Assembly: GCA_022013685.1 (NCBI GenBank)
Contig: JAKLPV010000112.1
Coordinates: forward strand, 1-64,000
Origin: Anaerolineae bacterium
GTDB taxonomy: Bacteria > Chloroflexota > Anaerolineae > Anaerolineales > Villigracilaceae
DNA length: 64,000 bases
Direction: 5' to 3'
Positions 23,883-26,009 of this stretch are shown piece by piece (position 1 is the stretch's first letter; every line of letters starts with the position of its first letter). Made by a program: the position numbers and the translations under genes. The notes beneath the pieces were generated by a model. That model did no database searches and was not told where the DNA came from. It worked only from the letters and a program-made list of their open reading frames with translations.

Positions 23883-26009
23883 ATGGATGCCTTTAGCCGC
23901 TATAACCAACTCAAACAGGAAATCAACGCCCACAACCACCGCTACCATGTGCTGGACAACCCCATCATCAGCGATGTGGAGTATGACCGGCTGCTGGTAG
24001 AGTTGCGCCAGATCGAATCGGAACACCCGGATTGGGTGACTCCCGATTCGCCGACCCAACGCGCCGGGGCAGTGGCCTCGGACAAGTTCGAGAAGGTCAA
24101 ACATCCGCGCCCGATTCTGAGCCTGGCAAACGCCTTCGGCGCGGCGGATGCGCGGACCTGGTACGAACGCATCCGCAAGCTGGATGACCGGGTCGAGCGG
24201 GCCAAATTCACGGTCGAGCCGAAAATCGACGGGTTGAGCGTCGTCCTGCACTACCGGGACGGAGTTTTCGTGCAAGGCGCAACGCGCGGCGACGGGGAGA
24301 TCGGCGAAGATATAACGGCGAATCTCAGAACGGTGAGGGCGATCCCGCTTCAGATTCCGGTGGACAGTGGACAGTGGACAGCATCCAGTGGGCAGAAGCC
24401 AGTGTCCAGCGAGCAATTATCTTTGTTTGGGGGTGCGGAAGAAAATTACCAATTACCAATCCCCAATTACCTGGTAGTCCGTGGCGAAGTCTTCATCAAC
24501 AACAAAGAGTTTGAGCGCCTGAATACGCGCCTGGCCGAAAACGGCGAAAAAACCTATATGAACCCACGCAACGCTGCCGCCGGGTCGCTGCGCCAGCTTT
24601 CCCCGGCGATCACCGCCACACGCCCGCTGACCATTCTGGTTTACCAGGTGGTCTACTGGGAAAACGAAGCGCAGAAAAATCCTGACATACTCTACCCGCC
24701 CGGCTCGCAATGGGAACTGTTGCAATGGCTGAAAAGCCTTGGCTTCCCCGTCACCGATGTGGCGCGGCGCTTTGATGCGCTGGACGAGGCGATCAGCTAC
24801 ACCGAAACCTGGGACGAAGGTCGCGACAACCTGGGCTATGAAGCCGACGGCATGGTGATCAAGCTCGACGATCTGGGCATGGCGCTCGAACTGGGGTTTG
24901 TTGGCAAAGACCCGCGCGGCGCGATCGCCTTCAAGTTCCCGGCCCGCGAAGTGACCACCACCCTGCTCAACATCGAGGTCGATGTTGGGCGGACGGGTGT
25001 CCTGACCCCCAAGGCCGTGCTTGAAGCGGTCGAGATCGGCGGGGTAATCGTCCGTAACGCGACCCTGCACAACTTCGACTATATCGCCGAGAAAGACATC
25101 CGCATCGGCGACCGGGTGCTGGTCAAGCGCGCCGGGGAGGTCATTCCCTACATCATCGGCCCGGTAACGGATGCCCGCGGCGGCGCGGAAACGATTTACA
25201 TCCCGCCCCAAACCTGCCCGGCCTGCGGCCAGGCGGTGGAGCACTTCGAAGGCGAAGTGGCCTGGTACTGCGTCAACGCCGCCTGCCCGGCCCAACTCGT
25301 CCGCAACCTGGAGCACTTCGTCTCGCGCGGTGCAATGGACATCAACGGGCTGGGCATCAAAATTGTCGAGCAGTTGATCGCCATCGGGCTGGTGCGCGAT
25401 GTGGCCGACCTGTACACGCTGACCCGTGAACAATTGCTCGCGCTGGAAGGTTTCGCCAACAAAAAAGCCGACAACCTGCTGGCCGCGATCGCAGAATCCA
25501 AAACCCAACCTTTGAACCGGCTGATCATCGCCCTCGGCATTCATGGCGTCGGAGAAGTTGCGGCTGGCGATCTGGCGCGTCATTTTAGCAGTCTGGATGA
25601 CCTTTCGGAAACCAGCGCCGCCGATCTAGAGTCGATCGAAGGCTTTGGCCCCAACACTGCGGCCGCCATCGTCGATTGGTTTGCCCGCCCGGCCAACCAG
25701 AATTTACTCCAAAAACTTAAAGAAAACAATGTCTGGCCGGTTTCCATACCTTCAACTTTCAACCTTCAACCTTCCAACCTGCCTTTTTCCGGCCTGACCT
25801 TCGTCGTTACCGGCACGCTTCCGACCCTGAGCCGCGAGGGCGTCAAGGAATTTATCGAAGCCCAGGGCGGCAAAGTGACCGATTCGGTCAGCAAAAAAAC
25901 TAGTTACCTAGTGCTGGGCGAAAATCCCGGCTCGAAGCACGACAAAGCCCTGTCGTTGGGCGTGCCAATTTTAGATGAAGACGGGCTTAAGAAATTGGCT
26001 GGCCAATGA
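23883..26009 (+). CDS. ligA: NAD-dependent DNA ligase LigA
   Basis: [66 protein letters not shown] Zn finger, HhH and BRCT ([26 protein letters not shown]). Confidence 0.97.
24361..24409 (+). repeat. Intragenic heptanucleotide repeat tract (seven units NNNNCAG)
   Basis: TGGACAG x3, CATCCAG, TGGGCAG, AAGCCAG, TGTCCAG in register. Confidence 0.9.
24444..24471 (+). repeat. Intragenic heptanucleotide repeat tract (AATTACC-type)
   Basis: AATTACC, AATTACC, AATCCCC, AATTACC. Confidence 0.85.
25749..25776 (+). repeat. Intragenic heptanucleotide repeat tract (CCTTCAA-type)
   Basis: CCTTCAA, CTTTCAA, CCTTCAA, CCTTCCA. Confidence 0.85.

Follow-up and report, generated by a model that had tools for sequence, protein, structure and literature searches.

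The window (the whole 64,000-nt stretch of DNA that was analysed, from an uncultured Chloroflexota bacterium of the Anaerolineae) contains a ligA gene in which two linkers of the encoded NAD-dependent DNA ligase, designated L1 and L2, are written largely in tandem seven-base units, or heptads. The features of the locus are collected in Table 1.

Table 1. Features of the ligA locus, in window coordinates
Feature	Position	Strand	Basis
ligA, NAD-dependent DNA ligase, 708 aa	23883..26009	+	TIGR00575 (E 3.8e-234) and NF005932, far over cut-off; frame open
L1, 37-residue loop in the adenylation domain, residues 160-196	24360..24470	+	gap between query 158 and 193 versus 2owo; low pLDDT
L1 upstream heptad tract, G-rich arm, GTGGACA / NNNNCAG type	24360..24409	+	period-7 tract scan
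QLSLF codons, candidate beta-clamp-binding motif, residues 178-182	24414..24428	+	consensus match; enrichment in relatives
L1 downstream heptad tract, C-rich arm, AATTACC type	24444..24471	+	period-7 tract scan
L2, linker between helix-hairpin-helix part and BRCT domain	25740..25793	+	lag-7 matches; low pLDDT at residues 624-630
CCTTCAA-type heptad tract within L2	25746-25782	+	period-7 tract scan
Heparinase-like gene downstream of ligA	26006..27958	+	weak match to HepC models
Heptad hairpin, in frame, within the heparinase-like gene	26878..26970	+	tract scan; fold z -5.0

The upstream units of L1, read from position 24361, are TGGACAG (three times), CATCCAG, TGGGCAG, AAGCCAG and TGTCCAG, and the downstream units are AATTACC, AATTACC, AATCCCC and AATTACC. 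Both tracts had been pointed out in an earlier, sequence-only reading of this DNA, and re-reading of the letters, together with the intact reading frame, confirmed that they are real, in frame and made up of those units. Identity at a lag of seven was observed at 58 of 108 positions in L1, as compared with 25.9 in shuffled codons (maximum 44 in 20,000 trials), and at 27 of 51 positions in L2, as compared with 14.7. At the threshold used, no tracts of any other period from 4 to 13 were found within the window, nor were any period-7 tracts found in 20 Markov shuffles of it. The earlier reading spoke of one extra linker in ligA, which is correct for L1, but L2 is also written in heptads, without added length; its tract was overlooked, as was the in-frame hairpin in the next gene. 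Elsewhere in the window, a perfect tandem duplication of AGCAATTGTCATTTCGAT (18 nt, 1.9 copies) was observed at 38968-39002.

At the place of L1, the LigA of Escherichia coli has approximately four residues, and the segment between residues 158 and 193 of the window LigA is extra with respect to both that enzyme (2OWO) and the Thermus-type 1DGS. In an AlphaFold2 model, pLDDT falls below 50 within both heptad linkers (residues 163-185 and 624-630), and the surrounding fold is confident (mean pLDDT 86). The sequence-only description of L1 as a low-complexity linker is incomplete in that the loop also contains QLSLF between the tracts.

LigA was present in 61 of the 61 genomes searched. For the comparison of the linkers, 80 named loci were fetched and 83 LigAs from Anaerolineales and relatives were analysed; 54 of these have a long loop at L1 (13 residues or more), and the loop of the other 29 is short, usually of 11 residues. 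Together with the absence of L1 from the E. coli and Thermus enzymes, this agrees with the proposal that L1 is a lineage-specific segment. In the long-loop set, the lag-7 match is 0.450 for L1 versus 0.259 in shuffled codons (z 27; z 22 in an earlier pass with a narrower parser), with a strong signal at lag 14 too, and 0.416 for L2 versus 0.288 (z 14.5). The dominant period of both linkers in these proteins is 7, along with its multiples 14 and 21. No period 7 was detected in L1 (z 0.2) or in L2 (z 1.5) of the short-loop LigAs. The length of L2 is the same in the two sets (median 16 residues with long loops, 17 with short ones). Tract density per kb amounts to 9.5 in L1 and 7.6 in L2, versus 0.09 in the flanking DNA and 0.02 in ligA outside the linkers, so that the linkers exceed the flanks about 100-fold.

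Since seven is not a multiple of three, selection on the protein cannot write such a pattern, and we infer that it is made or kept at the nucleotide level, the only level at which the period exists. The heptads keep in register with the conserved codons to either side, as is expected from local duplication or from one old insertion. Some relatives have heptads in one arm of L1 only, or none at all. In two genomes (G009 and G041; loci L046 and L060), L1 contains a different, CCTCACCCCGGCCCCTCTCCC...GGGGAGAGGGG-like repeat, translated as LTPAPLP/SPSPAGGE; the same linker therefore accepts other repeat families too.

The period and the pairing of the arms persist while the sequence of the tracts is quickly replaced. 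Sister species, each represented by a single genome, whose ligA DNA is 88-92% identical outside the linkers nevertheless have unrelated L1 loops, often with unrelated heptads. The window and Chloroflexi bacterium HGW-Chloroflexi-6, the nearest relative among the genomes searched, share 92% identity outside the linkers versus 64% in L1 after free alignment, and three species near 89% identity have L1 loops of 14, 22 and 26 residues on different words. Parsimony requires a minimum of 8 switches between the long and the short form of the loop; counting the clamp motif described below as a state raises this to 16. When the first half of each loop was compared with the second half, the complementarity score for a species' own arms was 9.98, versus 6.74 (sd 0.34) across species (0 of 5000 permutations), a test that is no count of independent events, as the species are related; shared ancestry would raise the cross-species score, not the own-arm excess. 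Codon-shuffled loops scored 6.19, and the direct orientation 6.0. The two tracts of L1 had been described as adjacent repeats; adjacent they are, but in many relatives they constitute the arms of one inverted repeat. Within an array, the similarity of units falls with distance. Conserved anchor columns were considered as proof of a template mechanism and rejected: column variance is raised, but duplicating units already mutated would have that effect too.

To place these tracts in a genomic context, about 0.72 Mb (724 kb) of the host draft genome (5.28 Mb in 239 contigs, estimated contamination 5.3%) was scanned. In this sample, 37 period-7 tracts were found to reach score 12, versus 3 after Markov-4 shuffling, and periods that are multiples of neither three nor seven mostly gave 1-5 tracts; each of these counts contains one masked run of N, and the density is slightly inflated because three of the sampled contigs were chosen for containing hits. 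Period 7 is thus enriched across the sample, as the sequence-only reading had anticipated. No diffuse signal accompanies the tracts in intergenic DNA, where the lag-7 match (0.264) is similar to that at neighbouring lags, and the tracts are therefore discrete. Most of them, as judged with a rough ORF caller, lie at gene edges or between genes.

The word CAATTACCAATTAC occurs 13 times in the host genome and its mirror image not once. Arrays of CAGT heptads were found in 29 of 201 Chloroflexota genomes; they are common in the family of the host and scattered elsewhere. Their presence in ligA goes with their number genome-wide (median 45 versus 3, p 0.007, in 28 genomes and uncorrected for relatedness). 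The richest genome seen, G054, has 628 matches to four successive CAGTNNN units and is a candidate for study of whatever generates them. The mirror-image control, i.e. TGACNNN repeats, is strongly enriched in genomes G196, G243, G091, G120 and G006; lineages of the phylum therefore favour different heptad words, and the control is not neutral in those genomes.

Tracts next to each other form inverted pairs: in the two genomes sampled, all 12 pairs that could be classified have a G-rich arm ahead of a C-rich one, and 2 further pairs have one arm that cannot be classified. Two hairpins at gene edges fold with z-scores of -5.6 and -4.1 relative to shuffles. The hairpin in the heparinase-like gene has arms of GGTGTCA (26878-26908) and TGACACC (from 26911); its orthologue in HGW-Chloroflexi-6 folds at z -7.9, and the two differ by 15 nt, i.e. 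two heptads and one base that keeps the frame. An inversion of this hairpin, at 26.9 kb, between the species was rejected, the direct alignment scoring 86 and the reversed one 56. In the L1 of the window the order of G-rich and C-rich arms also holds, but the arms belong to unrelated families and pair poorly. Unusual RNA structure was rejected for this copy, which folds no better than shuffles (z -0.94); the L1 loops of several relatives fold well (z -3 to -6).

Between the two arms of L1, in the part with pLDDT below 50, lies QLSLF. The sequence QL[S/D]LF, or more generally QxxLF, is the consensus for binding to the beta clamp (PMC12309361, PMC4976356), and the two DnaE proteins of the host genome have QLSMF and QMSLF. 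QxxLF was observed in 12 of the 41 loops of 20 residues or more, versus 0.22 expected from residue shuffling, and outside L1 in only one of the proteins with such loops. A relaxed form of the motif occurs in 20 of the 41, versus 0.31 expected, and in none of the 42 shorter loops; many relatives lack the motif. To judge from these sequence matches, L1 probably carries a putative clamp-binding motif and LigA a clamp tether. A beta-clamp-binding peptide, QEFIRSLF, has been described in the LigA of Helicobacter pylori (PMC4976356), and it was the only clamp site of another bacterial LigA found in the open-access literature searched. That site is near the BRCT domain, whereas the candidate described here is a canonical pentapeptide in a loop of the adenylation domain. 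If real, it would link ligation to the clamp in a manner new for bacteria.

Bacteria have been known for decades to contain seven-base repeats, and to our knowledge neither the number seven nor their spread has been explained. The likeness to cyanobacterial heptanucleotide repeats that had been suggested for the window tracts was upheld: the STRR and the long simple sequence repeats of Mrazek, so far as they are characterized where cited (PMC4679880, PMC4692102), are scattered seven-base tandem tracts mostly at gene edges or in intergenic DNA, and the host genome likewise has dispersed tandem seven-base tracts beyond chance. The GGGAATC heptamers of Xanthomonas and the GGGGA(C/T)T heptamers of Nostoc (PMC4692102) resemble those described here in their heterogeneous units with conserved and variable positions. 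The GGGAATC repeats form convergent inverted pairs (70 and 75 cases; PMC4692102), and such pairs, G-rich arm first, were found in the host genome sample. Xanthomonas and Nostoc, however, have one heptad family per genome, rarely inside genes, whereas here there are many families per genome. The TAACTGA repeats of Beggiatoaceae, cyanobacteria and Bacteroidetes (PMC4679880) are the complement of the CAGTTAT word in the LigA linkers and, as here, include copies in frame (LSVISYQ peptides); unlike here, they are mostly situated upstream of start codons, and those within genes belong for the most part to hypothetical proteins or to the ends of proteins (PMC4679880).

Heptad repeats and inverted heptad pairs are thus known from other phyla. 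In the open-access literature searched, no account of heptad repeats in Chloroflexota was found, in line with what the sequence-only reading had supposed for this lineage. What distinguishes the present case from the STRR and long simple sequence repeats is that the heptads reside lastingly, and in frame, in both linkers of a single essential enzyme, in many species and with turnover of the units; no description was found of such residence, of turnover with concerted arms or of a clamp motif between the arms. The LigA linkers constitute a rare orthologous and frame-constrained site, trackable through dozens of species, that bears on the origin of heptad repeats, and at which slippage, template switching, mobility and selection predict different outcomes.

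The explanation that we favour, and to which we would give about an even chance, combines slippage with template switching, tolerated in disordered linkers and accompanied by a probable clamp tether; the step of seven is outside its reach. The window tracts would belong to a genome-wide class of period-7 tracts, often arranged as inverted pairs with the G-rich arm preceding the C-rich one. Replication slippage in seven-base steps would build and resize the arrays, which would account for the arrays themselves and for units growing less similar with distance. Switches of template from one quasi-palindromic arm to the other would make the arms alike, so that they stay alike while their sequence moves. 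Such switching has been described, including in coding genes, where copying renders inverted arms alike (PMC8604942, PMC7202029); as described there, it is tied neither to a seven-base period nor to repeated occupation of a single site. Counting against this explanation, neither a slippage nor a template-switch event was captured directly in the loci compared, the heparinase-gene hairpin shows no inversion, the arms of the window's own L1 are of unrelated families, and many relatives lack the clamp motif. Selection would let the tracts persist in LigA at the two disordered linkers only, and in frame. As a separate component, the L1 of the host and of roughly half of those relatives whose loops reach at least 20 residues would carry the putative clamp motif, in which case the heptad arms may serve as flexible tethers coupling the ligase to the sliding clamp.

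Slippage had already been raised as an origin, and the arrays fit it; alone, it fails for the swapping of heptad families with arms still complementary. Plain seven-base slippage in a tolerant linker, as in ordinary heptanucleotide repeats and with the pairing of arms incidental, is consistent with the register of the heptads, with the decay of unit similarity and with heptads being the commonest class of 5-11 nt repeats in most genomes (Mrazek 2007, to the extent that it is cited in PMC4679880). It is rather unlikely, given own-arm complementarity well above the cross-species and shuffled controls, the uniform order of G-rich and C-rich arms, and the exchange of entire heptad families between near-identical ligA genes. 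In a small sample of exact CAGTNNN arrays, variable triplets lying side by side resemble each other no more than those farther apart do (0.15 at a distance of 1, 0.23 at a distance of 3), which simple slippage does not predict and which counts against the favoured explanation too. An active, locus-preferring process, as a property of replication or an enzyme system of heptad-rich lineages, might instead repeatedly lay new period-7 hairpins at fixed sites, including the two LigA linkers, from a species-wide vocabulary of words; this we regard as quite unlikely. It is very doubtful that the hairpins are mobile cassettes copied into permissive sites, for example by a REP-type transposase. The tracking of genome-wide CAGT heptads by those in ligA, the unrelated loops of sister species, and the different heptad arrays that the two nearest genomes have at orthologous intergenic positions would suit mobility, but the register with flanking codons and the unchanged length of L2 would not, and mobilization by a REP transposase is disfavoured because the numbers of Y1 transposases and heptads are uncorrelated (rho 0.18, p 0.16; within the family, -0.05).

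The arms, which do co-vary and which in several relatives fold well, could be maintained by selection for a hairpin in the ligA mRNA (for stability, translation pausing or a binding protein), and a regulatory role has been proposed for the TAACTGA repeats (PMC4679880). Selection for pairing needs no period of seven, though, and with the unremarkable folding of the window's L1 and the one-armed or heptad-free loops of some relatives, this reading is improbable overall; selection on RNA structure keeps some likelihood for the relatives but is unlikely for the window's own copy of L1. As for an artefact of metagenome assembly, the draft is fragmented and has some estimated contamination, but the frame is intact, the contig is largely collinear with HGW-Chloroflexi-6, and the feature recurs in dozens of genomes assembled independently, which already refutes it and leaves a practically negligible probability.

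Comparison with HGW-Chloroflexi-6 also revealed that window positions 14492-23836, with the rpsO and pnp region among them, are inverted, whereas the opposite orientation is retained by ligA and by the left flank; one of the breakpoints is situated just upstream of ligA (23836-23897). REP-like palindromes (CCTGAGCGGAG...CTCCGCTCAGG) are frequent indels between the host genome and HGW-Chloroflexi-6. They were observed at window positions 20811-20964, at L017:560-690 and at L025 12067-12184, and they match many places in related genomes.
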